Assembly: GCA_030647195.1 (NCBI GenBank)
Contig: JAUSKD010000011.1
Span: 1 to 33,303 of the forward strand
Source of the DNA: Candidatus Peribacter sp.
Lineage (GTDB): Bacteria > Patescibacteriota > Gracilibacteria > Peribacterales > Peribacteraceae
Direction of reading: 5' to 3'
Length of the DNA stretch: 33,303 nucleotides
Shown here one piece after another: positions 5,318 through 27,656 of the stretch; within the stretch, counting starts at the first letter, position 1; the number at the start of each line of letters is the position of its first letter. Both the position numbers and the translations under genes were made by a program. Under the pieces are notes generated by a model, which saw nothing but the letters and a program-made list of their open reading frames with translations, was not told the origin of the DNA and did not search any database.

Positions 5318-6664
5318 ATGAAGCAGTTCCAAACCTTCATTTTCGATTCCTGTGCCCTTGATGCTGAGGCAGGGAAAATAGAGCTCCGCTACTCGCTGGA
5401 CGATGAAGTGTTTTTCACCGAGACACTCCTACTACCCGAGGACTATCAGCTGCAGGCACCCAGTGCGGAGCAGGATGCGGCACTCGCGGCCCTGCACCTG
5501 ATCGGCGGCATCAGCTACTTCAAAACCTGTCTGCCGAAGAAGATAGAGATCCGCGCAGGATCGCTCACGCAGCAGCAGGCCCAATTCTGGAATACGGTGT
5601 ACACGAAGGGCCTCGGGGAATTCTTCTTCAAAAACCAGATCGATTTTCGTGGTCTCATCAACTTCCCCGCCGGCCCCCTCACCCCTGCCCTCTCCCCGCG
5701 GGAGAGTGTGGCGCAAAGCGCCGGGAGAGGGGCCCGACTCTTAGTCCCCATCGGCGGCGGCAAAGATTCCACGGTCACTGCGGAATTACTCAAGAAGGCA
5801 GGATACGACGTGACGCTCTTTCGGATAGGCAAGCATCCGCTCATCGAGCAGACGGCGAAGATCGCAGGGCTGCCGCTGCTCACCGTAGAGCGCCATCTCG
5901 CCCCCGAGCTCTTCAAACTGAATGCGGAAGGCGCGCTCAACGGGCATGTGCCCATCACGGGGTACCTCTCGTTCCTGAGCATCGTGATTGCAGAGCTCTA
6001 CGGATTCCATGCAGTCGTGATGAGCAATGAGCGCAGCGCCAACGAGGGCAACGTGGACTATCTGGGCGAACAGATCAATCACCAGTGGAGCAAGAGCCTC
6101 GAATGCGAGCGACTGCTGCAACAGTACGCCAGAGGAATAGGCACCAACGTGGAGTACTTCAGTCTGCTCCGGCCCCTAAGCGAGCTCTCCATTGTGCAAA
6201 TGTTCTCCACCCTGCCGCAGTATTTCTCATGTGTCACGAGCTGCAATACCAACTGGAAAATCGCAAATCGCAAATCTCCAATCGCAAATCGCTGGTGTGG
6301 GAACTGTCCCAAGTGTGCGTTTGCGTTCGCCATGTTCGCCGCCTTTCTGCCGGAGAAAACACTGCAGGAGATTTTCGGAAAGAACTTTTTCAACGAGGAA
6401 TCACTCCTGCCCTTTTACCGGCAACTGCTCGGCCTCGAAGGCTTCAAGCCCTTCGAGTGTGTCGGCACGATTGAGGAGACGGCAGCCGCTTTCCTGCTTG
6501 CAGAGAAACGCGGGGAGAGTGATACATCCAAAGCCATGCAGATCTTTCTGAAGGAGGTGAAGCCGACCATCAACGATGGCAAGAAACTCATCGAAGAGTG
6601 CCTCCGACCTTCATCCGACCACTGCATTCCAAACCCTTTTCAAAAGCTTACAGCTCACAGCTGA
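5318..6664 (+). CDS. murL: MurL-like UDP-MurNAc-L-Ala-L-Glu epimerase
   Basis: 448 residues. MurL activates the terminal L-Glu of UDP-MurNAc-L-Ala-L-Glu with ATP and epimerises it to D-Glu, replacing glutamate racemase (established in Xanthomonas). Supporting sequence: a PP-loop-type nucleotide motif GGGKDS (residues 146-151), the block NERSANEGN (237-245), NHQWSKS, and a Cys cluster WCGNCPKC (326-333). The next gene, 10 nt downstream, is a MurD ligase, the same pairing as in Xanthomonas. Two low-complexity inserts interrupt conserved regions: PLTPALSPRES to GRGA (about 119-139), from a palindromic DNA repeat, and KIANRKSPIANR (about 314-325), from a heptad array. The C-terminus KLTAHS also comes from a heptad array that holds the stop codon. 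The MurL name rests on motifs and context recalled from memory. Confidence 0.75.
   Translation: MKQFQTFIFDSCALDAEAGKIELRYSLDDEVFFTETLLLPEDYQLQAPSAEQDAALAALHLIGGISYFKTCLPKKIEIRAGSLTQQQAQFWNTVYTKGLGEFFFKNQIDFRGLINFPAGPLTPALSPRESVAQSAGRGARLLVPIGGGKDSTVTAELLKKAGYDVTLFRIGKHPLIEQTAKIAGLPLLTVERHLAPELFKLNAEGALNGHVPITGYLSFLSIVIAELYGFHAVVMSNERSANEGNVDYLGEQINHQWSKSLECERLLQQYARGIGTNVEYFSLLRPLSELSIVQMFSTLPQYFSCVTSCNTNWKIANRKSPIANRWCGNCPKCAFAFAMFAAFLPEKTLQEIFGKNFFNEESLLPFYRQLLGLEGFKPFECVGTIEETAAAFLLAEKRGESDTSKAMQIFLKEVKPTINDGKKLIEECLRPSSDHCIPNPFQKLTAHS
5679..5735 (+). repeat. palindromic PLTPALSPRE-type repeat inside murL
   Basis: The DNA here contains TCTCCCCGCGGGAGA flanked by outer arms CCCCTGCCCT and GGGAGAGGGG, able to form a long stem-loop. 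It is translated in frame as PLTPALSPRES followed by GRGA. Similar peptides occur in many unrelated bacterial proteins as read-through of an intergenic palindrome (general knowledge). Here it sits directly before the GGGKDS loop. Confidence 0.7.
6257..6291 (+). repeat. CAAATCG heptad array inside murL
   Basis: Five consecutive 7-bp units: AAAATCG, CAAATCG, CAAATCT, CCAATCG, CAAATCG. Translated as part of KIANRKSPIANR, immediately before the CGNCPKC cluster. Confidence 0.85.
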
Positions 6665-6674: not shown

Positions 6675-7985
6675 ATGCACATTCGTGAACTTGCCGGCAA
6701 GAACGTCTGCATCCTCGGCTTCGGCAGAGAGGGACAGGCCATGCTCAAAGCGCTGGAAGAGCACGCACCCGGCTGCGAGGTCACGGTCGCGGATCAGAAT
6801 GCGGCAATCACTCTGCCGCATGGCTCACGCCACTGGCTGCAGGTGGGAACAGGCTGGCTCAAGAATCTCGAACGCTTTGATATTCTGATCAAATCCCCCG
6901 GCATTCCACCAAGCGAAGAGCTTGCAGCTTATAGCTTAAAGCTTTCGTCTCCGACACAGATCTTCTTTGATTCCATCGCAAACACTGGGGCGACGGTTAT
7001 CGGAGTGACAGGTTCCAAAGGAAAGAGCACCACGGCCTCTTTACTCTTTCACATCCTCCAAACAAGCCAACAAGCCAACAAGCCAACAAGCTACCTCGTC
7101 GGCAACATCGGCGAACCTGCCATCGCGCACATCGCGGATGCCGCGCCCGGAACAATTTTCGTGATGGAAATGAGCAGTTACCAGCTCATGGATCTGAACT
7201 TGAGCCCACACATCGCTGTTGTCACCGCGTTCTTCCCCGAGCATCTGGACTACCACGGGTCCGTGGAAGCGTATAAAGAAGCGAAGAAGCATATCGCGCG
7301 CTTCCAGAGGCCCGGAGACAAAGTCTTCTTCGCTGCGGATTCGGAGGGCGCGCGCGAGATCGCATCGGAAGGCATCGGGAAGAAGATCCCCTTCTCCGCG
7401 GCGGATGCACCCGTAGCGATTGAGGAGACGAAGCTCATCGGCATGCACAACGCGAGTAACATCGCCGCGGCCTTTCTCGTCAGTCGGGAACTCGGTGTTT
7501 CGAAAGACAGAGCCATCGCGGCAATCCGGTCGTTCGCCCCGCTCCCGCACCGCCTGCAGTCACTCGGTGTCCGTCACGGCATCGAATGGGTGGATGATTC
7601 CATCTCCACTACCCCGGAATCCGCCATCGCCGCGCTCAATGCTCTGGGAGACCGTGTGGCAACGATCATCCTCGGCGGGCAGGACCGCGGCTACGACTTC
7701 ACGACGCTCGCGGAGCGACTGAAACACTCGAGCGTGCAAACCGTCATTCTGCTGCCCGAGAGCGGCAAACGAATTCGGGAATCACTGGAAAAGGTAAATT
7801 TCCATGCGCGCGTACTGGATGCGAACAACATGGAAGAAACCATCACATTCGCAAAGCAACCTCAAAGCTCACAGCTCAAAGCTCACAGCTTCCCCATCGT
7901 CCTCCTCTCTCCAGCCTCCCCCAGTTACGGACATTTCAAAAACTTCGAGGACCGTGGGGATCAATTTGCTCAAGCTGTGGGGTGA
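6675..7985 (+). CDS. murD: MurD-family UDP-MurNAc-L-Ala:glutamate ligase
   Basis: 436 residues from the ATG at 6675, where the Rossmann-like NVCILGFGREGQA begins near residue 10. It joins glutamate to UDP-MurNAc-L-alanine with ATP in the cytosol. Motifs: GSKGKSTT (113-120, ATP loop), MEMSSYQL (164-171), HLDYHGS (190-196), MHNASN, DDSISTTPESA and LGGQDRGYDF. Canonical MurD usually has NDSKATN where this protein has DDSISTT; together with the adjacent MurL-like gene this suggests the MurD2 type that adds L-Glu, with later epimerisation. It contains three repeat-derived patches: two AGCTNNN arrays (SLKLS and SSQLKAHS) and a 4 x 8-bp array (SQQANKPTS). Frames upstream of 6675 belong to murL. The ligase family is very sure; substrate chirality is inferred. 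Confidence 0.92.
   Translation: MHIRELAGKNVCILGFGREGQAMLKALEEHAPGCEVTVADQNAAITLPHGSRHWLQVGTGWLKNLERFDILIKSPGIPPSEELAAYSLKLSSPTQIFFDSIANTGATVIGVTGSKGKSTTASLLFHILQTSQQANKPTSYLVGNIGEPAIAHIADAAPGTIFVMEMSSYQLMDLNLSPHIAVVTAFFPEHLDYHGSVEAYKEAKKHIARFQRPGDKVFFAADSEGAREIASEGIGKKIPFSAADAPVAIEETKLIGMHNASNIAAAFLVSRELGVSKDRAIAAIRSFAPLPHRLQSLGVRHGIEWVDDSISTTPESAIAALNALGDRVATIILGGQDRGYDFTTLAERLKHSSVQTVILLPESGKRIRESLEKVNFHARVLDANNMEETITFAKQPQSSQLKAHSFPIVLLSPASPSYGHFKNFEDRGDQFAQAVG
6919..6946 (+). repeat. AGCTNNN heptad array inside murD (first)
   Basis: Four perfect-register units AGCTTGC, AGCTTAT, AGCTTAA, AGCTTTC, translated as LAAYSLKLS between the substrate-binding domain and the ATP-binding domain. Confidence 0.8.
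7062..7093 (+). repeat. 8-bp tandem repeat inside murD
   Basis: Four copies of ACAAGCCA in a row; the last has T for the second C of the CC pair. Translated within TSQQANKPTS just after the P-loop helix. The unit is not a multiple of three, so gain or loss of one copy would shift the frame of an essential gene. Confidence 0.85.
7866..7893 (+). repeat. AGCTNNN heptad array inside murD (second)
   Basis: Units AGCTCAC, AGCTCAA, AGCTCAC, AGCTTCC, translated as SSQLKAHS before the last strand of the C-terminal domain. Confidence 0.85.
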
Positions 7986-10613: not shown

Positions 10614-11345
10614 ATGAAACCCGTCCTGCTCTGTCTCCATGGCTGGGGCGGCTCGAAAGAGTCTTTCGCGGAACTCCGCGCCATGCTGGAAGGCGAAGAT
10701 CTGCTGATCCTCACGCCGGACCTGCCCGGCTTCGGCTTGGAGCCGGAACCGGATCGGGCTTGGAGCGTGGATGACTACGCCGATTGGGTCGAAGCCTGGT
10801 TGCAAAGACACGCACCCACGGAGGGGTGCTCTACATTATTGCTGGGACATTCTCACGGAGGCCGCATCGCCATCAAACTAGCTTCCCGCTACCAGCTACA
10901 AGCTACCAGCTACAAGCTCGAACATCTGTACCTCTGCGCCGCCGCAGGGATCCGCCACCGGTCACTCAAGCGCTTACTCGGCAGGATGCTGGCCGGAATC
11001 GGACATGTCATCTTCGCCCTCCCCGGACTTTCACGGTTGGAACCATTGGCAAAAAAAATGCTCTACAAGCTCCTCCGTGAGCACGACTACGAGCGGGCCT
11101 CGCCGATGATGCGTCAAACACATGCGAAGGTGACTGCCGAAGACCTGACTCCCCTCCTCTCGCAGATCACTGTGCCCACCGATCTCTTCTGGGGCGAGGA
11201 CGACACGTACACTCCCCTCGAAGACGGCTACACGATGCACGAAGCCATCCACGGAAGCGTGCTGCATACCTTTGCGGGAACCCGCCACCGCGTGCACCGC
11301 GATCGCGCCCCCGAAATCGCCTCGGTGATTCGTGACCACCTCTGA
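10614..11345 (+). CDS. alpha/beta hydrolase
   Basis: 243 residues, full alpha/beta-hydrolase fold. HGWGGS (residues 9-14) forms the oxyanion loop. GHSHGG (79-84) is the nucleophile elbow with Ser80. GEDDTYTP (194-201) gives the acid, and RHRVH (224-228) holds the catalytic His. No signal peptide, so probably cytosolic; substrate unknown. Between the elbow helix and the next strand the protein carries SRYQLQATSYKLE, encoded by an AGCTNNN heptad array (10880-10921), an insertion unlikely to be ancestral. The gene leads a plus-strand run of envelope genes and is separated from the membrane-fused Mur ligase by an array of seven heptads that begins in its own stop codon. Confidence 0.9.
   Translation: MKPVLLCLHGWGGSKESFAELRAMLEGEDLLILTPDLPGFGLEPEPDRAWSVDDYADWVEAWLQRHAPTEGCSTLLLGHSHGGRIAIKLASRYQLQATSYKLEHLYLCAAAGIRHRSLKRLLGRMLAGIGHVIFALPGLSRLEPLAKKMLYKLLREHDYERASPMMRQTHAKVTAEDLTPLLSQITVPTDLFWGEDDTYTPLEDGYTMHEAIHGSVLHTFAGTRHRVHRDRAPEIASVIRDHL
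10880..10921 (+). repeat. AGCTNNN heptad array inside the hydrolase
   Basis: Six units: AGCTTCC, CGCTACC, AGCTACA, AGCTACC, AGCTACA, AGCTCGA. Translated as SRYQLQATSYKLE in the loop after the helix that follows the nucleophile. Confidence 0.85.
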
Positions 11346-11391
11346 TCCCTTCTTCCTTAGTCCTTTTCCCTTAGTCCTTCGTCCTCATCCC
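11343..11391 (+). repeat. NNNNTCC heptad array filling the gene junction
   Basis: Seven consecutive 7-bp units: TGATCCC, TTCTTCC, TTAGTCC, TTTTCCC, TTAGTCC, TTCGTCC, TCATCCC. It begins on the TGA stop of the hydrolase and ends four nt before the GTG of the next gene. It contains no ribosome-binding site. Confidence 0.9.
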
Positions 11392-11395
11392 AACC

Positions 11396-12928
11396 GTGTC
11401 CCTCCTCCTCATTCTCCTCACCCTCACGGCCACCCTCTCGCCCCTCCTGACGTTCGGAACGCTCTGGCAGGTGAAGGAATGGCGGATTGACCGCCTGCGC
11501 GCGCACTTCAGAAGTGAGGGCCTGTTCCTGCAAACCTTCGGCTTCCTTAAACCCTTGATCCTGCTGCTGGCCCTGCCCGTATTACTCCATCGGTGGGTGC
11601 CGCACGATACATGGACGATTGGCGTGCTGTCGCTTCTGACCATGCTCACGGTGATCCGGCTCGCGGCGAACCGCCAGCCCCGTCCCGTCTGGACGATGAA
11701 GGCCATCGCCCTCATGGGTGGAGCGGTGATCTTCGTCCTGCTCGCTGCGCTGCTGGTTCTGGTACTCCCTCCGGAATATGTGCCGGCTCTGGCGGTGATT
11801 CCGCTGCTTGCACCACTCGCGCTCCTCCTCTCGTGGAGCCTCTTTCTGCCGGTCGACATCCTCCTCAAGCGCCGCATCATGCGTTCCGCCCTTGCCTTGA
11901 GAAACCGCAACGATCATCTGATCGTCATCGGCATCACGGGGAGCGTGGGAAAAACAACCACAAAGGAGCTCCTGCTCCACCTCCTCCGGGATCAGGGGGC
12001 CGCGTCCACCCCCGCGTATGTGAACTCCGAGATCGGCGTGGCACGCTGGATCATCCAGACACTTTCGGGTGCATCAGTCCCCAAGATCCTCATTGTAGAA
12101 ATGGGCGCGTACCGCAGCGGAGAAATCCGCCGTCTCTGCCAGATTTCACGCCCGCTCATCGGCATCATCACCTTCATCGGATCGCAGCACATGGCCCTCT
12201 TCGGCTCGCAGGAGAAGCTGCTCGCGGCCAAAGCGGAGCTGTTCGATACCCTTCCTCCCGAGGGGGCGGGCATCGTGAACGGCGATAGTCCGTTTGCTCC
12301 TGAGCTGCGGAAGCACGCACACTGCCGGACCGTGACCGTGGGGACGGGGGGCCCGGCGGACCTGGAGGCATTCGACATCGAGGAAACTGCAACGGGCCTG
12401 CGCTTCCGCACCGGCAACACCATGATCACGACTCCGCTCCATGGCACCCACAACGTGACGAATATCCTCCTCGCGATGGCGGCCGCCGAAGTGTTGGGCA
12501 TCAAGCGCCCCGAGATCGCACGCCGGCTCCCGAGTTTCAGGCCACCGGAGCACACCTTCTCGGTCAGAGCGATCGGATCGGTTACTCTGCTCGACGATAC
12601 ACACAACGCCAGTCAGGCCAGCTTCAAGGCGAGTATCGGCTGGTCCAAGTCTCAGCCCGCCGAAGAGAAAGTGCTGCTGACGAGCGGACTCATCGAGCTC
12701 GGGGAAGACGAGGATCGCGTCCACTCACAACTGGGCGTGGAGGCAGCCGGTGTGTTTGACCGTGTCATCTTCGCCCATGCGCGGCATGCGCGCTCCTTCG
12801 CGCGCGGTTACGGCAAACCCGTTGAAATCCTCTCGAAGAAAACACAGCCGGTCTCGCCCCGGTCCCTCTTCATCTGCGTCGGGCGCATTCCCGAAGAAAC
12901 CGTCCGCCGTTTACTTCCCAAGTCCTAA
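11396..12928 (+). CDS. membrane-fused Mur ligase (MurF-like)
   Basis: 510 residues in two parts. Residues 1 to about 165 contain five or six hydrophobic helices (for example LLLILLTLTATLSPLL and IFVLLAALLVLVLP). From about 170 a Mur ligase follows: TGSVGKTTTKE (181-191, ATP loop), VEMGAYRSGEIRRL, HGTHNVTNILLA and LLDDTHNASQASF, the order of a MurF-type central and C-terminal domain. The usual N-terminal UDP-sugar-binding domain is replaced by the membrane part. It may therefore ligate an amino acid or peptide to a lipid-linked precursor at the membrane rather than to a soluble nucleotide (inference). Start is GTG at 11396, directly after a heptad array, without Shine-Dalgarno. The stop TAA lies inside the next array. 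Confidence 0.85.
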   Translation: MSLLLILLTLTATLSPLLTFGTLWQVKEWRIDRLRAHFRSEGLFLQTFGFLKPLILLLALPVLLHRWVPHDTWTIGVLSLLTMLTVIRLAANRQPRPVWTMKAIALMGGAVIFVLLAALLVLVLPPEYVPALAVIPLLAPLALLLSWSLFLPVDILLKRRIMRSALALRNRNDHLIVIGITGSVGKTTTKELLLHLLRDQGAASTPAYVNSEIGVARWIIQTLSGASVPKILIVEMGAYRSGEIRRLCQISRPLIGIITFIGSQHMALFGSQEKLLAAKAELFDTLPPEGAGIVNGDSPFAPELRKHAHCRTVTVGTGGPADLEAFDIEETATGLRFRTGNTMITTPLHGTHNVTNILLAMAAAEVLGIKRPEIARRLPSFRPPEHTFSVRAIGSVTLLDDTHNASQASFKASIGWSKSQPAEEKVLLTSGLIELGEDEDRVHSQLGVEAAGVFDRVIFAHARHARSFARGYGKPVEILSKKTQPVSPRSLFICVGRIPEETVRRLLPKS

Positions 12929-12992
12929 GTCCCAAGTCCTATTCCCTCTTCCCGATTCCCTCCCTTCGTCCTTAGTCCTCCGTCCTATGTCC
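12919..12992 (+). repeat. NNNGTCC heptad array spanning stop and start codons
   Basis: CAAGTCC, TAAGTCC, CAAGTCC, TATTCCC, TCTTCCC, GATTCCC, then a 4-bp slip (TCCC), then TTCGTCC, TTAGTCC, TCCGTCC, TATGTCC. The TAA stop of the Mur ligase and the ATG start (12987) of the aminotransferase both lie inside units. Confidence 0.9.
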
Positions 12993-14246
12993 CTCCTCCG
13001 TCCCATCCACCACACGTTCGCCCCGCATGTGAATGCCGGCTACGTGCTGCGCACTCTTGCGCTCCTGTTCCAGCCGTGGAAGTGGAAAGAAGGACCACAG
13101 CGTGAGGCATTGCGCTGCGCTCTCGCACAGAAGTTTGACGCCGACGTGTTTCTGTTCGCCTCCGGGCGCGAGGCGCTGGCTGCTCTCTTCAAGGCAGTAA
13201 AAGACCCGTCGCACGCCGAAGTGATCGTGCAGGCCTACACCTGCGTGGTCGTGCCCAACGCCATTCAGGCGGCCGGCAAGACGCCGGTCTACGCCGACAT
13301 CGAGCGGGAATCGCTGAATCTGTCCGTGGAAGACGTCGAGCGTCGCCTGACCCCCCGAACTCTGGCCGTCATCTGCCAGCACACCTTCGGCATCCCGGCT
13401 GATACGCACAAGCTTCGGGCACTCTGCGACCGCTACGGTCTCTTGCTCATTGAGGACTGTGCGCACGTCATTCCGGATGACACGGGACCGCAGACGATCG
13501 GCAAGGACGGGGATTTCATCCTGCTCAGCTTCGGGCGCGATAAGGCGATTTCGGGTATCACGGGGGGCGCCATCCTCTCGCGCCGGCCCGATGTGTCGGT
13601 CCGGCTCAAGGCAGAGGAAGGAGCGGCCCGTTCACTCTCACTGCTCCGCATCAAGCGCTTCCTCCTTTACCCGCTTGTATACGCCGTCGCCCGGCCGCTG
13701 TATGGCATTGGCCTCGGCAAACCCCTTCTCGTCCTCGCCCGCACCATCGGCGCCCTCGTGCCGATCCTGACGAAAGAGGAGAAACGGGGGCACATGTCCC
13801 CGGCCCTCCACAGGCTGCCCAACGCCTGCGCGGCTCTCGCCCTCGTAGAGCTTTCACGGCTCAAGGAAATCAACGATCACCGCCGTCGCCTCACCGCCCT
13901 CTACCTCTCAGAACTCCTCAAATCGCAAATCTCAAATTCTGCAATCCCCAAATCTATTCATCCCGCTCTCCCGCTGCAGAAATTCCCGCTTTTCGTACAC
14001 GGAGCATCTGCCATCCGTCACACGCTCAAGAAACACAACATCCACCTGAATGACGGGTGGACCGGCTGCGTGGTGTGCCCTGCGGGAACATCGTTGGATG
14101 AAGTGAGCTACACGAGAGGGCTTGATCCGGAGGCGGAACAAGCCTGCGAGCAGATCCTGTCGCTCCCCACGCATCCGACCATGACAGAAGCTCAGGCCCA
14201 AACACTCATGCAGGCACTGTCAGAAACACTAACAGAAGGGTGCTGA
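12987..14246 (+). CDS. DegT/DnrJ/EryC1-family PLP aminotransferase
   Basis: 419 residues, fold type I PLP enzyme of the sugar-aminotransferase family. FASGREALAALF (about residues 55-66) binds the cofactor phosphate; AYTCVVVPNAIQAAG and YADIERESLNL follow the usual order; IEDCAH holds the ring Asp; SFGRDKAISGITGGAI carries the Schiff-base Lys. Such enzymes aminate keto sugars used in surface glycans. Residues LKSQISNSAIPKSIHP (about 311-326) come from a CAAATCG array inserted before the C-terminal domain. The ATG at 12987 lies in the upstream heptad array, and longer frames overlap the previous gene. Context: between a Mur ligase and a FemAB transferase, pointing to envelope glycan work. Confidence 0.9.
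   Translation: MSLLRPIHHTFAPHVNAGYVLRTLALLFQPWKWKEGPQREALRCALAQKFDADVFLFASGREALAALFKAVKDPSHAEVIVQAYTCVVVPNAIQAAGKTPVYADIERESLNLSVEDVERRLTPRTLAVICQHTFGIPADTHKLRALCDRYGLLLIEDCAHVIPDDTGPQTIGKDGDFILLSFGRDKAISGITGGAILSRRPDVSVRLKAEEGAARSLSLLRIKRFLLYPLVYAVARPLYGIGLGKPLLVLARTIGALVPILTKEEKRGHMSPALHRLPNACAALALVELSRLKEINDHRRRLTALYLSELLKSQISNSAIPKSIHPALPLQKFPLFVHGASAIRHTLKKHNIHLNDGWTGCVVCPAGTSLDEVSYTRGLDPEAEQACEQILSLPTHPTMTEAQAQTLMQALSETLTEGC
13919..13955 (+). repeat. CAAATCG array inside the aminotransferase
   Basis: CAAATCG, CAAATCT, CAAATTC, a 2-bp slip, CAATCCC, CAAATCT. Translated as part of KSQISNSAIPKSIH. Confidence 0.8.
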
Positions 14247-14252
14247 AGCCGC

Positions 14253-14280
14253 TTGCTCCGGTCCAAGACGGGTTTACACT
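14253..14280 (+). promoter_or_regulatory. promoter-like pair before the 142-residue gene
   Basis: TTGCTC (14253-14258), 16 nt, TACACT (14275-14280), ending nine nt before the ATG at 14290. Confidence 0.45.
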
Positions 14281-14289
14281 CTGCTCCCT

Positions 14290-14718
14290 ATGCCTAAAAC
14301 GCCGGAATGTGATTGGGAAGCCGCGCGCACGCTCGAACGGGAACTACAGTGGTTCTCGGACCAGCTCGTCCGTGCAGAGAGCAAGGCGGCGCTCCGGCGG
14401 ATCATGAATCTCGTACATACCAAACGCCGCGCGCAGGGTCTTAATGCCTACGCCGAGATGCACGAGCTCTTCGGGCTCAACCACAACGTCACCAACTACG
14501 CCATCGTGCTCTGGCTTGAGTACCTTGAACGGAAAATCATGGCCATCTTCGATATTGGCGACTGCCCGTCAGGTTTGAGAAGGGAACGAGTGATCCCGGC
14601 TCTCCCTTTCCCCACGGAGCAACCACCCCCCGTCCACCCGCGCATCGCCCCGCAAAATTTAGACCAGCTTTCACCCACCTCATTCCTGTGCAGAAAAATG
14701 GAAAATGGCCTACACTAG
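14290..14718 (+). CDS. hypothetical protein
   Basis: 142 residues (MPKTPECDWEAARTLERELQ and on). The first 95 residues are helical and charged, with ALRRIMNLVHTKRRAQGLNAYAEMHELFG and a Trp/Tyr-rich helix IVLWLEYLERK. The last 45 are Pro-rich and probably disordered (FPTEQPPPVHPRIAP). No signal peptide or membrane segment, and no family recognised. Its own -10-like element and the promoter for the next gene (inside its final codons) suggest separate starts within the run of envelope genes. Confidence 0.65.
   Translation: MPKTPECDWEAARTLERELQWFSDQLVRAESKAALRRIMNLVHTKRRAQGLNAYAEMHELFGLNHNVTNYAIVLWLEYLERKIMAIFDIGDCPSGLRRERVIPALPFPTEQPPPVHPRIAPQNLDQLSPTSFLCRKMENGLH
14711..14716 (+). promoter_or_regulatory. 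-10-like TACACT before the FemAB gene
   Basis: TACACT ends 11 nt before the ATG at 14728 and overlaps the last codons of the preceding gene. Confidence 0.4.
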
Positions 14719-14727
14719 CCCCGCAGA

Positions 14728-15834
14728 ATGACAGTAACCGAAGCCACCAATCCGCAGGAGTGGGATGCCTTCCTCTCGGCACAAACATACCGCCCCTTCC
14801 TGCAGAGCTGGACCATGGGCGAGGTCTACCGCGACACGCAGCAGGAACCCATCCGGCTGGAAGTGCGCGATGAAGGAGCGATTGTCGCCATCTGTCTGGC
14901 GATCCTGGTGCCCGCCCGGCGCGGTCGTCATCTCTCGATTCCCTACGGACCCGTCCTCAGCTCAAAGCTCACAGCTCACAGCTCACAGCTTGCCTTCGAC
15001 TCCCTCATTCAGGAACTCACCAGCGTCGCGCGTACACACCAGTGCGCCTTCATCCGTATGAGTCCGTTCTGGCCTTCCGAGTTCCCGAGTTCCCCAGTTC
15101 CCTCCGCCGTCCCCTCCCCCCTCCACCTGCTCGCCGAATACCTCTGGTACCTGCCACTTACAACACCGGAACCATGGAATTTAGAGCTCACAGCTCACAG
15201 CTCACAGCTACAAGCTCGTACAGAGGAAGAACTCCTGATGGCCATGCGCAAGACCACGCGCAACCTCGTGCGCCGCGCGGAGCGCGACGGAGTCACGATC
15301 GAGGCCTCGCAGGACCCGAGCCGGGAGATCGACCATTTCATCGCCCTTCACGACGAAACCCGCCAGCGCCACGGTTTCACCCCGTACACCAATACTTTCT
15401 TCCGCTCACAGGTGCGCCGGTTCGCCGAGCGCGGGGAGTGCACGCTCTATCTCGCACGCTACCAGGGCGAGGTGGCTGCGGCCTCTATCCACATGCACGC
15501 CTTCGGCGAGACGAGCTACCACCACGGCGCCAGTACGCACCGGCTCTCCAAGGTCCCGGCGAGCTACCTGCTGCAATGGACGGCCATTCGTGATGCGCTC
15601 AAGCGTGGAGACCGCGTGTACAACTTCTGGGGCATCGCCCCCGTGACACTGGATGCCGACGGCTCACCAACGGTCACGGATCACGATCACCCGTTTTCGG
15701 GAGTGACACTCTTCAAGACCGGGTTCGGGGGCTCTCTGCTCCCTCTGACGCACTGCATGGATTTCCCGCTCAGTGCGCGCTACCATCTCACTCGCGCCTT
15801 CGAACTCTTCCGCAAGTGGCGCCGCGGCTTCTAA
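14728..15834 (+). CDS. FemAB-family aminoacyl transferase
   Basis: 368 residues with the two-GNAT-domain layout of FemA/FemB/FemX, which add amino acids from aminoacyl-tRNA to the side chain of lipid-linked peptidoglycan precursors. Supporting segments: FLQSWTMGEVYR and SIPYGPVL near the N-terminus, MRKTTRNLVRRAERDGVTIE at the start of the second half, then FIALHDETRQRHGFTPY, YHHGAS, and NFWGIAP near the end. Three low-complexity inserts: SSKLTAHSSQLA (AGCTNNN array), FPSSPVPSAVPSP (TTCCCNAG-like array) and ELTAHSSQLQA (AGCTNNN array). They lie in the first GNAT domain, presumably in surface loops. Cytosolic face of the membrane. The family is sure; which residue is added is unknown. Confidence 0.88.
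   Translation: MTVTEATNPQEWDAFLSAQTYRPFLQSWTMGEVYRDTQQEPIRLEVRDEGAIVAICLAILVPARRGRHLSIPYGPVLSSKLTAHSSQLAFDSLIQELTSVARTHQCAFIRMSPFWPSEFPSSPVPSAVPSPLHLLAEYLWYLPLTTPEPWNLELTAHSSQLQARTEEELLMAMRKTTRNLVRRAERDGVTIEASQDPSREIDHFIALHDETRQRHGFTPYTNTFFRSQVRRFAERGECTLYLARYQGEVAAASIHMHAFGETSYHHGASTHRLSKVPASYLLQWTAIRDALKRGDRVYNFWGIAPVTLDADGSPTVTDHDHPFSGVTLFKTGFGGSLLPLTHCMDFPLSARYHLTRAFELFRKWRRGF
14959..14990 (+). repeat. AGCTNNN heptad array inside femAB (first)
   Basis: AGCTCAA, AGCTCAC x3, AGCT. Translated as SSKLTAHSSQL. Confidence 0.9.
15078..15104 (+). repeat. TTCCCNAG array inside femAB
   Basis: TTCCGAG followed by TTCCCGAG, TTCCCCAG and TTCCC: units of seven to eight bp, translated within FPSSPVPS. 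Confidence 0.65.
15185..15219 (+). repeat. AGCTNNN heptad array inside femAB (second)
   Basis: AGCTCAC x3, AGCTACA, AGCTCGT. Translated as ELTAHSSQLQAR. Confidence 0.9.
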
Positions 15835-15875
15835 AACCGCAGCCACGAAGGGCTGCTCTGCGATTTCTGCCCTTC

Positions 15876-15902
15876 CTCACCTTCCTTTCTTTCCTGTCCT
15901 TC
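15876..15902 (+). repeat. 9-bp pyrimidine array before the small membrane gene
   Basis: CTCACCTTC, CTTTCTTTC, CTGTCCTTC: three 9-bp units ending two nt before the ATG at 15905, in the place where a ribosome-binding site would be. Confidence 0.75.
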
Positions 15903-15904
15903 TC

Positions 15905-16207
15905 ATGGCCAAGCCTCTCCCCCCGCAGACAACCGAAGACAAGCTCGACCGCATCGTCGCGATTTTGGATCGCATGAACCGTCGCGACAGGCTGCGCACG
16001 ATCGGAGGTTTCATCCGGGGCGTCTTCAGCATCATTCCGATCATCATCGTCGTGTTCTTCACGTGGTACACGATTAAGTACGGCGATCAGCTGCTGGAGA
16101 AGATCACCTCGATGGCCGCGCAGCAGGCCGGAAAAGTGGCACAGCAGAACGCCGTCAGCGACTTCATGAAGGAGTTCAACGCGATCAACCAGAAACTGCA
16201 GAAATAG
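15905..16207 (+). CDS. hypothetical single-pass membrane protein
   Basis: 100 residues from the ATG at 15905. A charged N-terminal helix (TEDKLDRIVAILDRMNRRDR) is followed by one membrane segment (about 45-65, VFSIIPIIIVVFFTWYTI) and a Gln/Lys-rich C-terminal amphipathic tail (AAQQAGKVAQQNAV). The arrangement suggests an inner-membrane protein with coiled-coil potential on either side. No family recognised. Last gene of the plus-strand envelope run; its TAG stop overlaps the first unit of an AGCTNNN array. Confidence 0.7.
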   Translation: MAKPLPPQTTEDKLDRIVAILDRMNRRDRLRTIGGFIRGVFSIIPIIIVVFFTWYTIKYGDQLLEKITSMAAQQAGKVAQQNAVSDFMKEFNAINQKLQK

Positions 16208-16283
16208 CTTATAGCTGTTAGGTGTTAGCTTTTAGGGACGGTTGCTTAACCTATCAGCTAATAGCGACAAGCTCACAGCTACT
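16206..16283. repeat. two AGCTNNN arrays filling a convergent junction
   Basis: AGCTTAT, AGCTGTT, AGGTGTT, AGCTTTT, AGGGACG, then after a gap AGCTAAT, AGCGACA, AGCTCAC, AGCTACT. The stop codons of both convergent genes (plus 16205-16207, minus 16281-16279) lie in or against the outer units. No other terminator is visible here. Confidence 0.8.
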
Positions 16284-17724
16284 GACCTTTTACCATCGTG
16301 ATCACTTCCTGATCGGTGGCGGTTGGCGAAACCAGGAAACTCGGGAGCCTGAGCAGTTGCTCGCGCTGGAATGTGCGATCCGGGGCAACCCCCACCCCGA
16401 GCAGATACCCGGCCTGTGCGGCGTACTGGGCCACCCGCTCGTTCACCCCGCCCTCGGGGTACCCGACGATGCGCACCTGTCCGTGCGTGTAGTCCTCGAG
16501 AAGCTTGCGGCTCTGCGCGAGCTCCAGCTCCACCTGCGCATTGGTCAGCGACCGCAGGTCATCCCCCGTGTGCCCGCCCGACTCGATATCAAACCCGTTG
16601 GCGAGGAGGGTTAAGAGTGTCTTTTCGGTGATCCCCGAGAGCCCCAGCTCCTTCGTGGGAATGAAGAGCGTGGCCTTCACGCCCGCCGCTGTGAGCGCAT
16701 CCGAAGCCGTGCGCACGTTCTGCGCGGTCAAATCCGACACTGCGATGACGACGGCCTTGGGCGGCAGGCGAATATCCTTCTCCTGCTGCTTCAAGAGCAA
16801 ATCAGCGAACTGATCCATGGTGAGGAACGACACGCCTTCCGCCTTGAGCTTGGGCAGATGCCGGATGAGCGCGTCGAGCGAACCCTGCTGCGAAAGACGG
16901 TAGTGCAAAATCGGCAGCGTAAACGTGTTCTGCCGCACGAGGAAATTCGGCAGGAACGGTGAGAGGTACTGCATGGCCACATAGCCCTCCTTGCCCTGGA
17001 ACGAAATGCGCGCCCAGTTATCGTCGTGACTCACGGGTTTGACGAAGGCCTGCCCCGGCAATTCGCCCAGCTTCTCGCTGTCGCTGTCCGCTCCCTTGCG
17101 GACGTTCACGAAGCCGAAGTTCACGTAGTACTGACCGGCAAACGCCTCCTTCTCCTTTTTCAGCTGCTCCTCCGACACGATCTTGGCGATGTAGCGCTGG
17201 GAGAGGTAACCCTCGCGATTGTCCGTCATCCGCACCTTCGCCCATGCTGCGTCCACGAATTCCAGCACGGTCACGGAATCGCCCCTGACCAGCCGGGCCA
17301 GCTGCGACGACGTCACGTTGGAAGAGGACCGCACGTTCAGAAATTCATTGGTGACCTGGTAGCTGTCCTTGCTCGCTATCCCCGGCCCCGCCCGCACTGC
17401 GTCATACGTCTTCATGAGCGAGAGATCGAGTACCGGCGGTTCTGTGGGGAGTTTCTGCCCTGTCGTCAGATCCATCACGGCCCCCGATGCCGCCTCCGAC
17501 GTCACCTCTGTCCCCGATCCCGCCATGTCGGCCTGCTTGGCCAGATCCCTAAACCGGGCCAGATCCTCGGCGGTGAAAGAGAATTCCTCTTCATTCCCCG
17601 GCGTTGAGGCCGATCCACATCCCGCAAACAGAATGCCGAACGAGGCAATCAGGAGGAACGCGATGAAGGAACGGGTGGTGACGGCAGCCATAGAACGACG
17701 GGGGGGCTGATAATACCGGGACAT
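16279..17724 (-). CDS. lipoprotein with two SH3 domains and a degenerate deacetylase-like domain
   Basis: 481 residues. The signal peptide FIAFLLIASFGILFAGC ends in a lipobox. A linker (about 40-110) precedes two bacterial SH3 domains: one from NEFLNVRSSSNVTSSQLARL to EGYLSQRYI, the other from FGFVNVRKGADSDSEKLGEL to EGYVAMQYL. SH3 domains of this type bind peptidoglycan. The C-terminal 220 residues follow the NodB polysaccharide-deacetylase pattern, but the usual TFDDG reads AVSDLT, and the HTxxH metal pair reads HTGDD, while the later YPEGG is kept. One catalytic Asp is therefore lost and one metal His is replaced by Asp, so activity is doubtful. An alternative ATG at 17691 fits the -10-like TATTAT (17715-17710) better. 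Outer face of the membrane. Confidence 0.85.
   Translation of the reverse strand: MSRYYQPPRRSMAAVTTRSFIAFLLIASFGILFAGCGSASTPGNEEEFSFTAEDLARFRDLAKQADMAGSGTEVTSEAASGAVMDLTTGQKLPTEPPVLDLSLMKTYDAVRAGPGIASKDSYQVTNEFLNVRSSSNVTSSQLARLVRGDSVTVLEFVDAAWAKVRMTDNREGYLSQRYIAKIVSEEQLKKEKEAFAGQYYVNFGFVNVRKGADSDSEKLGELPGQAFVKPVSHDDNWARISFQGKEGYVAMQYLSPFLPNFLVRQNTFTLPILHYRLSQQGSLDALIRHLPKLKAEGVSFLTMDQFADLLLKQQEKDIRLPPKAVVIAVSDLTAQNVRTASDALTAAGVKATLFIPTKELGLSGITEKTLLTLLANGFDIESGGHTGDDLRSLTNAQVELELAQSRKLLEDYTHGQVRIVGYPEGGVNERVAQYAAQAGYLLGVGVAPDRTFQREQLLRLPSFLVSPTATDQEVITMVKGQ
17710..17715 (-). promoter_or_regulatory. -10-like TATTAT near the SH3/deacetylase start
   Basis: On the minus strand TATTAT lies inside the first codons of the longer reading frame and 18 nt before the internal ATG at 17691, supporting the shorter start. 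Confidence 0.3.
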
Positions 17725-17733
17725 GGGATGGAG

Positions 17734-17775
17734 GGGAATAGGGGGTAGGGCGTAGGGAGTAGGGAGTAGGGAGAC
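17734..17775 (+). repeat. GGGNNTA heptad array
   Basis: GGGAATA, GGGGGTA, GGGCGTA, GGGAGTA, GGGAGTA, GGGAGAC: six 7-bp units between argS and the SH3 lipoprotein gene. On the minus strand this is TACTCCC, close to the NNNGTCC family. Confidence 0.9.
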
Positions 17776-24090: not shown

Positions 24091-24215
24091 ATGATAAATC
24101 GCCAATCGCAAATCCCCAAGTGATAAATGCACGCAATTTGCGATTTCCCGATTTGAAGAATTGCGATTTGAAACAAACAAATCGCAAATCGCAAAATACC
24201 CAAATCGCAAATCGT
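24091..24215. repeat. CAAATCG heptads in both orientations between rbfA and fmt
   Basis: Copies of CAAATCG/CAATCGC occur in plus orientation (24103-24118 and 24178-24215) and as CGATTTG-like units in minus orientation (24131-24170). The opposite orientations could pair into a long stem in either transcript leader. Confidence 0.7.
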
Positions 24216-24252
24216 CCTTTGCCCCCTGTCCTGCGTCCTCATCCCTATCCTG

Positions 24253-25144: not shown

Positions 25145-25234
25145 GGGCAGAAAAGTGAGGGAAAGTGAGAAAAGGCAGGAAGGTGAACGTGAGAGTCCCT
25201 TTCTGCCCTTTCTTTCCTTTCTTTCCTTCCTGTC
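25141..25234. repeat. inverted 9-bp arrays between fmt and the PurA-like gene
   Basis: The right half is CTTTCTGCC, CTTTCTTTC, CTTTCTTTC, CTTCCTGTC (25199-25234), ending at the stop of the PurA-like gene. The left half (25141-25190) carries the complementary purine version, for example GGCAGAAAAG and GGCAGGAAGG, starting at the fmt stop. The halves can pair into a long imperfect hairpin and may act as a shared transcript end for the convergent genes. Confidence 0.7.
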
Positions 25235-25235
25235 T

Positions 25236-25520
25236 TCAGAGTTTCGTTTTCATTTCCTGCAGCGCCGCTATGATCGGATCCAGATCCTCGGAATCGAACA
25301 TGATCGTGGTCTTGCGGCCGCCGCGGCTCTTTTCTGAAATTTTCAGGAACTTGCCGTTCCCCGACTGCTTTAAGTCGATGTAGAACGTGCGCTGGCGCGC
25401 GTGGATCGTGACGGAGTGGATCTCGTCGGCATACTGCCGTCCACCGCCGCCTCCACCGCCTCCGAATGCGGGAGCACCCTGCGGTGCGCCGCCCGTGAGT
25501 TCCGCCATGGGATCGAACAT
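25236..25520 (-). CDS. PurA/DUF3276-like nucleic-acid-binding protein
   Basis: 94 residues from the ATG at 25520 (an ATG at 25508 is also possible). After a Gly/Ala-rich start with eight consecutive Gly, residues about 30-94 form one PUR repeat: EIHSVTIHARQRTFYIDLKQ (strands), GKFLKISEKSRGGRKTTIMF (strands), and DLDPIIAALQEM (helix). PUR-alpha-like bacterial proteins bind single-stranded nucleic acid, usually as dimers through the helix. The Gly run is encoded by CCACCGCCGCC-like triplets and may vary in length. The family call is from pattern memory; the fold looks right. Confidence 0.75.
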   Translation of the reverse strand: MFDPMAELTGGAPQGAPAFGGGGGGGGRQYADEIHSVTIHARQRTFYIDLKQSGNGKFLKISEKSRGGRKTTIMFDSEDLDPIIAALQEMKTKL

Positions 25521-27204: not shown

Positions 27205-27240
27205 TAAATCGCAAATCGAAAATCCCCAAATCGCAAATTC
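27205..27240 (+). repeat. CAAATCG heptads between metG and the VirB2-like operon
   Basis: TAAATCG, CAAATCG, AAAATCC, (C), CAAATCG, CAAATTC, immediately followed by the 9-bp pyrimidine array. Confidence 0.8.
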
Positions 27241-27250
27241 CTCCCCTCCT

Positions 27251-27304
27251 CTTACATTCCTCACCTTTCTCACCTTCCTTACTTTCCTTACCTTCCACGC
27301 CTTC
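27251..27304 (+). repeat. 9-bp pyrimidine array at the end of the VirB2-like operon
   Basis: Six units: CTTACATTC, CTCACCTTT, CTCACCTTC, CTTACTTTC, CTTACCTTC, CACGCCTTC. It ends one nt before the stop codon of the last operon gene (27306). Confidence 0.85.
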
Positions 27305-27305
27305 T

Positions 27306-27656
27306 TCATCCCCCAGTCACTCCGATGATGAGCTGCCCCACGTACGTGATGACCGACCATCCCATGATCGCGAGGACGAGTCCCCCGAGGGCATACTCGA
27401 TGATCTTCTTCGCTTCATCCTTGGCGGCCTCGCCGCCGGTCACCAGCTTCACCGACGCGTAGAGCACCGCCAGCACGGCCCCGCCGCCGACCAACTGGAA
27501 GATGAATGTAGCCGTGCGGCCGGCCAGATCCATGAGGAATGTCTGCCCTCCCCCACACGCCCCGAACGTACTGCAGTACGCTCCCCACACGCCGAGATCG
27601 GCTGCAAGCGCCGGCTGAGAGAAGAGGCCGAGGAGGATTTCGAAGAGGTGCGTCAC
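27306..27656 (-). CDS. VirB2/TrbC-like pilin-type membrane protein (third of operon)
   Basis: 116 residues with a GTG start at 27656 that overlaps the previous stop by four nt (GTGA). An N-terminal hydrophobic leader ends LALAADL-like (LFSQPALAAD). Two membrane segments follow (about 47-70 and 86-110) joined by a polar loop GGEAAKDEAKKIIEY. The length, leader and helix-loop-helix layout fit VirB2/TrbC conjugative pilins. A Cys pair (CSTFGAC) lies before the first helix. It shares the loop pattern (G, acidic, Lys, then an Ala-Gly helix) with the two genes before it. It probably forms a pilus or channel subunit powered by the VirB4-like ATPase. Confidence 0.75.
   Translation of the reverse strand: MTHLFEILLGLFSQPALAADLGVWGAYCSTFGACGGGQTFLMDLAGRTATFIFQLVGGGAVLAVLYASVKLVTGGEAAKDEAKKIIEYALGGLVLAIMGWSVITYVGQLIIGVTGG

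Follow-up and report, generated by a model that had tools for sequence, protein, structure and literature searches.

Heptanucleotide arrays in and between genes of Peribacteraceae are consistent with stop-filtered, quickly replaced families of dispersed tandem repeats

Introduction

Three gene junctions in a 33-kb stretch of a Candidatus Peribacter genome (33,303 nt, referred to as the window; contig 37 of a 1.35-Mb draft genome) are occupied by arrays of tandem heptanucleotides, in two of which stop or start codons of the neighbouring genes are embedded. The initial annotation of this DNA proposed that repeat families whose units form stop codons are confined to such junctions and that the family is chosen by location, as expected under selection against stops. 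The locus therefore raises the question of whether the arrays represent a device that marks the ends of genes, or whether their location follows from what a reading frame is able to tolerate.

Materials and Methods

The sample amounted to 1.76 Mb from one genus, consisting of 326 kb from the genome of the window itself, 748 kb of unmasked G003, 374 kb of G004 and 313 kb of G002, and the sampled material represents stretches of draft MAGs. Arrays were called at a lag-p identity of at least 16/21, with a looser threshold of 15/21 at orthologous sites, and genes were called using a home-made codon model; because the calls rest on this model and on lag-p identity, single gene or array calls can be wrong.

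Results

Arrays at three gene junctions

The three arrays are located at the hydrolase/Mur-ligase, the Mur-ligase/DegT and the polysaccharide-deacetylase/ArgS junctions, and comprise, together with adjacent genes, the following features.

10614-11345, plus strand: alpha/beta hydrolase gene, including an in-frame heptad array at 10881-10918
11343-11391, plus strand: junction heptad array of 7 NNNNTCC/NNNGTCC units, opening with the hydrolase TGA stop (26/42 lag-7 matches)
11396-12928, plus strand: Mur-ligase-like gene (Mur_ligase_M), between two GTCC junctions
12916-12939, plus strand: GTCC array (TCCCAAGTCCTAAGTCCCAAGTCC) holding the TAA stop (12926-12928) of the Mur-ligase-like gene
12940-12962, plus strand: weaker heptads (TATTCCC TCTTCCC GATTCCC) and a register shift, linking two GTCC blocks
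12963-12992, plus strand: GTCC array holding the ATG (12987) of the DegT-family gene
12987-14246, plus strand: DegT/DnrJ/EryC1/StrS aminotransferase gene
17734-17775, plus strand: GGGNNTA array that is C-rich when read on the mRNA strand of the two minus-strand genes beside it

All three arrays were found where the initial annotation had placed them, and far beyond chance: lag-7 identity equalling that of the 11343 array occurs at 0.17 per Mb of third-order Markov sequence, and none equalling the 12916 region or the 17734 array was encountered in 6 Mb of such sequence. Based on these controls, a chance origin was rejected. As had been described, the first array extends over seven heptads (TGATCCC TTCTTCC TTAGTCC TTTTCCC TTAGTCC TTCGTCC TCATCCC) from the hydrolase stop codon to 4 nt (AACC) before the GTG start at 11396. 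The second had been viewed as a single array starting at 12919; it does hold both the TAA stop and the next ATG, but is composed of two GTCC blocks with 23 nt of weaker heptads between them and one register shift. The GGGNNTA array is present as described, and it ends some 10 nt ahead of the ATG at 17724.

The order of the genes around the Mur-ligase-like gene is conserved in Peribacteraceae. In all five congeners, both the hydrolase/Mur-ligase and the Mur-ligase/DegT junction contain arrays, the families of which differ; in G010, G008 and G012, where the genes almost abut, neither junction has an array.

Arrays in such positions might be transcript-ending or processing signals. Junction arrays in general hug the ends of coding sequences (median 3.5 nt from the nearest edge), and about half of them (64/124) have an inverted partner within 150 nt. 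However, the two GTCC arrays fold no more stably than shuffled sequences (MFE 0, z 1.2; z -0.1), the 17734 array yields an unrelated GC stem upstream and no fold beyond shuffles, and hairpins are also found within glmS and carB, both essential genes, and at junctions of divergent genes. An intrinsic terminator, a GC stem followed by a T run, was not found at any of the three arrays. As they are unstructured as RNA and lack a terminator, the three arrays are unlikely to end transcripts, and for junction arrays as a class we consider such a role very unlikely.

Judged by its letters, the 17734 array would be a candidate for a G-quadruplex element that regulates the neighbouring gene, as has been proposed for the GGGNATC repeats of Xanthomonas and Nostoc. 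It contains overlapping GGG-N4-GGG-N4-GGG-N4-GGG matches and hence at least four GGG tracts spaced by 4 nt, its position immediately upstream of a start codon, on the antisense strand, is the preferred one in these bacteria (PMC4692102), and, alone among the arrays here, it belongs to a family that is kept in three congeners (G002, G003 and G004). At least four GGG tracts at 7-nt spacing, as in those repeats, occur in this array only, the two GTCC arrays being without GGG tracts. The GTCC, AGCT, AAATCGC and GAATNAN families cannot form quadruplexes, and yet location, pairing and polarity are common to them and to the GGG families. Quadruplex formation was therefore rejected as a general explanation, since the GGG families alone qualify, and a regulatory role of this kind would appear quite improbable.

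Abundance of short-period arrays

The arrays are dispersed. Period-7 arrays occur at 68-217 per Mb, compared with 0 per Mb in third-order Markov controls; period 7 ranks first among the non-triplet periods, periods 6, 8 and 9 are also raised, and periods 4, 5, 10, 11 and 13 are near the control level. The arrays thus have the character of long simple-sequence (heptanucleotide) repeats, with tandem units in the range of 5-11 nt beyond chance and period 7 prominent. Array density is 45/Mb in coding sequences vs 430/Mb outside, and the 190 period-7 arrays divide into 66 in gene interiors and 124 at junctions. For 62 of the 66 genes with interior arrays, an ortholog exists in another sampled genome. 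In a phylum-level sample, the GTCC x4 pattern was found in 6/13 genomes of the family, in 0/13 from other families of the class and in 5/261 elsewhere in the phylum.

Arrays of other periods were also noted. The period-9 arrays CCTTTCTTT and TTCCTCACC of the window (25198-25236 and 27238-27308) behave like heptads and include a hairpin at the convergent junction 25145-25235, and telomere-like CCCTAA/TTAGGG hexamer arrays and hairpins occur at junctions in G004 (L119) and G007 (L078) as well as at L100:6821-6916 and L068:8814-8898.

Stop codons and location

That stop-forming families are found only between genes holds for the 33-kb window and is false for the rest of the genome and the congeners, where, for example, CCGAAGTCCTAAGTCC... 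resides inside a conserved ORF (L036:14468-14493 in G000; ortholog L122:9244-9290 in G004). The choice of family by location is likewise not upheld, as both families occur in interiors and junctions alike: GTCC accounts for 21/66 (32%) of the interior and 31/124 (25%) of the junction period-7 arrays, and GGGNNTA for 10/66 (15%) and 24/124 (19%), respectively. An association with location does emerge for the units themselves, since consensus units that form a stop on the sense strand account for 10/66 arrays in genes vs 43/75 at codirectional junctions (Fisher p=2.6e-7). Such units are therefore depleted, yet present, inside genes, so that confinement to junctions fails; the proposed selection against in-frame stops survives, because interior stop-forming units are not as frequent as stop-free ones.

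This selection can be seen unit by unit. Three heptads expose all three frames, and an in-gene array hence survives only without an in-frame stop, which depends on its orientation, its frame and its variable triplets. With respect to orientation, 9/10 interior GGGNNTA arrays have CCCTANN on the sense strand. With respect to frame, stops are avoided frame by frame: the 36 stop triplets of interior arrays all lie in the two other frames. The count of 0 in-frame stop triplets follows from the definition of an ORF; what is non-trivial is that a change of triplets allows the same families to persist. Among sense GGACnnn arrays the triplet is TTA in 12/16 in frame 0, 2/13 in frame 1 and 0/10 in frame 2 (p=0.007), and it is frame 2 alone in which GGACTTA would yield TAG (TTA+G). 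For sense TAAGTCC, 0/11 in frame 0 vs 6/31 in other frames represents a trend only (p=0.17). A total of 27 genes have their stop codon within an array, TAA or TAG in 26 cases and TGA in one; genome-wide, TGA is the commonest stop (561/1220). The location bias may thus in part be survivorship, a consequence rather than a choice. Stop-codon logic alone yields an apparent gene/junction code in repeat DNA, which cautions against taking the location bias of a repeat as a signal.

Gain, loss and replacement in related genomes

Further arrays of the window, most of them located inside genes, are the following.

6258-6292, plus strand: in-gene array AAATCGC, stop-free in this orientation
7061-7091, plus strand: in-gene period-8 array AACAAGCC in a MurD-like gene
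7858-7890, plus strand: in-gene array AGCTCAC in a MurD-like gene; same slot with CCGATTC in G003 and CCCTACG x10 in G002
10881-10918, plus strand: in-gene heptad array GCTACAA/GCTACCA; same slot with CCCTACG in G003 and other families in G002
14959-14990, plus strand: in-gene heptad array AGCTCAC in the FemAB gene (site 1)
15185-15209, plus strand: second FemAB in-gene array (AGCTCAC); orthologs with GAGCAAC x4 or palindromic elements
16206-16273, no strand assigned: heptad hairpin with AGCT family arms and a 16 nt loop at the 15905-16207/16279-17724 junction
24172-24238, plus strand: heptads of two kinds (AAATCGC, GTCC) that belong to an inverted arrangement and separate the divergent rbfA-like and fmt-like genes

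Slots are used recurrently, and families replace one another in them. At FemAB site 1, six genomes have six different period-7 arrays at the same codons, five of them of equal length, with AGCAGNN, AGTACNN, CAACTTT or GGAATCA arrays in the orthologs. Among 107 ortholog comparisons of in-gene slots, an array was present at the same codons in 48, of the same family in 10 and of a different family in 38, where 'different' rests on a cut-off of 6-of-7 in unit similarity. Array length was equal in 7/38 different-family pairs, and thus both new insertion and in-place change are possible. Orthologous junctions share 51 arrays vs 27.9 expected (28 of different, 15 of the same and 8 of similar family); at 24172-24238, other families occur in G002 and G004 and none in G003. 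Within a family, the in-gene pair L036/L122 differs in length by exactly 21 nt, or three heptads, the step predicted by slippage that is limited by the frame. At the ileS slot, G002 has an array of CAAGTCC units and G000 one of AGCTCAA units; in G001, G003, G004 and G005 the slot is empty.

Whole hairpins are inserted at clean sites. In glmS of G002, an 81-nt GTCC hairpin forms a clean insert at a site that is empty in G000, G001, G003, G004 and G006, and an insert of the same kind is present in carB of G002, with an empty site in G000, G001, G003 and G004. Both inserts are MITE-like in that a whole palindrome was inserted and the site is empty in relatives. Clean insertion of whole hairpins would fit elements mobilized by a REP-associated (Y1/RAYT) transposase or synthesized by a reverse transcriptase, and four of five congeners have Y1_Tnp and RVT_1 matches. 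The complete-contig congener G003, however, is as array-rich and has neither; PF01797 is present in G000, G001, G002 and G004 and absent from G003. In addition, no conserved element body was seen in the hairpins, and their loops are not shared between copies except in one orthologous pair. As G003 lacks both enzymes, neither is needed; they were rejected as the writer of the arrays, and an origin of this type is highly improbable.

Several observations concern inserts of other kinds. Palindromic elements of the CCCCTCTC...GAGGGG and TTCGACAGGCTCAG types occupy FemAB site 2 in G003, G004, G007 and L082/L093 (G012), the same slot being a heptad slot in G000 and G002. A palindromic insert coding for PLTPALSPRE is present within 5318-6664 of the window (about residue 120), approximately at the position of a heptad array in the G002 ortholog (L140:4146-4207). 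The isoleucyl-tRNA synthetase gene of G002 (L153:2339-6727) includes an internal stretch that resembles phosphoglycerate mutase (repeated RHGE motifs), and has an ortholog of similar length in all congeners.

Hairpins and strand polarity

An inverted partner within 150 nt was found for 84/190 period-7 arrays, compared with about 4 expected. In 37/38 period-7 hairpins the left arm has G>C, that is, the purine-rich arm is 5'. Array-free inverted repeats gave 44:39, and this polarity was therefore rejected as a general trait of inverted repeats in these genomes. Similar hairpins are made by arrays of periods 6, 8 and 9, and GTCC hairpins fold into 4-bp helices that alternate, ladder-like, with 3-nt internal loops. 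Inverted heptad arrays also occur at a distance of about 370-520 nt (L059:15745-16203, L098:18450-18908, L121:1539-1982, L048:14836-15394), where they flank a short stretch in the manner of terminal repeats of a small element.

The outward strand of period-7 arrays is G-rich in 43:4 cases beside starts vs 543:228 at array-free starts. Beside stops the ratio is 43:15, made up of 31:4 for paired arrays and 12:11, or no bias, for single ones. A sense-strand pyrimidine rule for all junction arrays was rejected (41/75, not significant as stated), and the pyrimidine bias of junction arrays is confined to start edges and paired arms.

It might be speculated that arrays at start edges serve as translation-initiation elements, for instance as pyrimidine-rich leaders bound by S1 or a different RNA-binding protein, a role that has been proposed for TAACTGA repeats. 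Single arrays nearest to a start are C-rich on the sense strand by 26 to 2 and, at codirectional junctions, lie at a median of 13 nt before the next start, and a Shine-Dalgarno-like motif is present at 1/38 array-preceded starts vs 155/1118 others (p=0.05). Array-free start edges, however, display the same bias in weaker form, so that part of it reflects general composition or avoidance of false Shine-Dalgarno sites, as purine arms contain AGGA; moreover, the units at a given junction change between congeners, and related genera have no array there. A role in initiation is thus judged unlikely.

Discussion

Taken together, the arrays look less like a special stop-making device than like fast-changing repeat DNA under selection against stop codons, because the same families occur in genes in stop-free form and a different repeat is often found at the same spot in relatives. 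We consider it rather likely that stop-filtered, quickly replaced families of dispersed tandem repeats in Peribacteraceae explain the arrays. They would be members of several dispersed short tandem-repeat families of period 6-9, mostly 7, which may arise, spread, contract and be replaced quickly, as single arrays or as hairpins of two inverted arrays. Landing might occur both in genes and between genes, with the present set being what remains after selection. A stop-forming array that lands in the tail of a gene would cause the ORF to end inside the array, which would then be scored as a 'junction' array, and between genes the stop filter would be absent.

Copying probably proceeds by replication slippage and template switching, or by recombination between copies of a family, and most copies probably have no specific function and would persist because they are tolerated. 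Slippage alone leaves several features unexplained, namely the same units at unrelated loci, the conserved tetranucleotide beside three varying positions, the shared arm family around unrelated loops, and the in-place change of family at kept length at FemAB site 1. The strong polarity of the arms and the bias beside start codons point to an active mechanism, or else to a function. Because the units at FemAB site 1 differ at the same codons and arm polarity is fixed at 37:1, it might be hypothesized, tentatively and as a rather doubtful possibility, that a slot retains its heptad array or hairpin on the timescale of species, with the unit being rewritten as a whole by an active process that writes short G/purine-rich repeats outward. 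If so, rewriting would proceed in telomere-like orientation, away from both sides of a break or slot, and independently of any RAYT or reverse transcriptase found here. The arrays place unexpected in-frame inserts in homologues of MurD, FemAB, GlmS, CarB and IleRS, and since families are replaced at the same codons of conserved genes in closely related uncultured bacteria, the origin and spread of heptanucleotide repeats, a long-standing question, become directly testable by comparison of sister genomes.

Several known systems share individual traits with these arrays. Rickettsia palindromic elements are palindromic DNA inserted in frame in conserved genes, and each represents a conserved, longer element; here, in contrast, the arms are heptad arrays and the loops are not conserved. 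The heptads at an intron locus described in a 2002 paper resemble the present ones in being degenerate, in flanking a hairpin on both sides, in varying copy number and in comprising more than one repeat class, but belong to a single intron locus rather than to a dispersed genome-wide set. For Geobacter metallireducens, the consulted sections of the source (PMC2700814) describe tandem heptads dispersed in and between genes, with some classes drawn as hairpins; these sections present few families and report no frame or slot-replacement test.

The TAACTGA direct repeats of Beggiatoaceae are heptads located before starts and over stops (MacGregor 2015, PMC4679880). Forward repeats have stops in all frames and so end ORFs, and reverse repeats occur inside ORFs, such that the stop-codon reasoning of the initial annotation is that already published for this system (PMC4679880). 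The same study cites earlier work that ranked heptanucleotides first in abundance among repeat classes in most genomes, and for which slippage of the polymerase was proposed as the cause. The TAACTGA system consists of one mostly unvaried unit, unlike the many families observed here, and no TAACTGATAACTGA was present in our 219 loci.

Heptameric repeats of the GGGNATC and GGGGA(C/T)T types are known from Xanthomonas and Nostoc (Rehm et al. 2015, PMC4692102). They are dispersed, G-rich and mostly intergenic, form inverted convergent pairs and differ in copy number between species; immediately upstream of starts their G-rich strand is the antisense one, and immediately downstream of stops it is the sense one. 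Period-7 arrays in Peribacteraceae follow the same orientation rule and likewise form inverted pairs. The Peribacteraceae arrays differ in comprising many families, most of which are not G-tract repeats, in periods of 6-9, in the location of about a third of the period-7 arrays inside ORFs, and in the replacement of one family by another within a slot. A published account of these arrays in Peribacteria was not found in the literature searched and, as far as this literature shows, the many families, their replacement at conserved slots in essential genes and the unit-by-unit frame filter are new.
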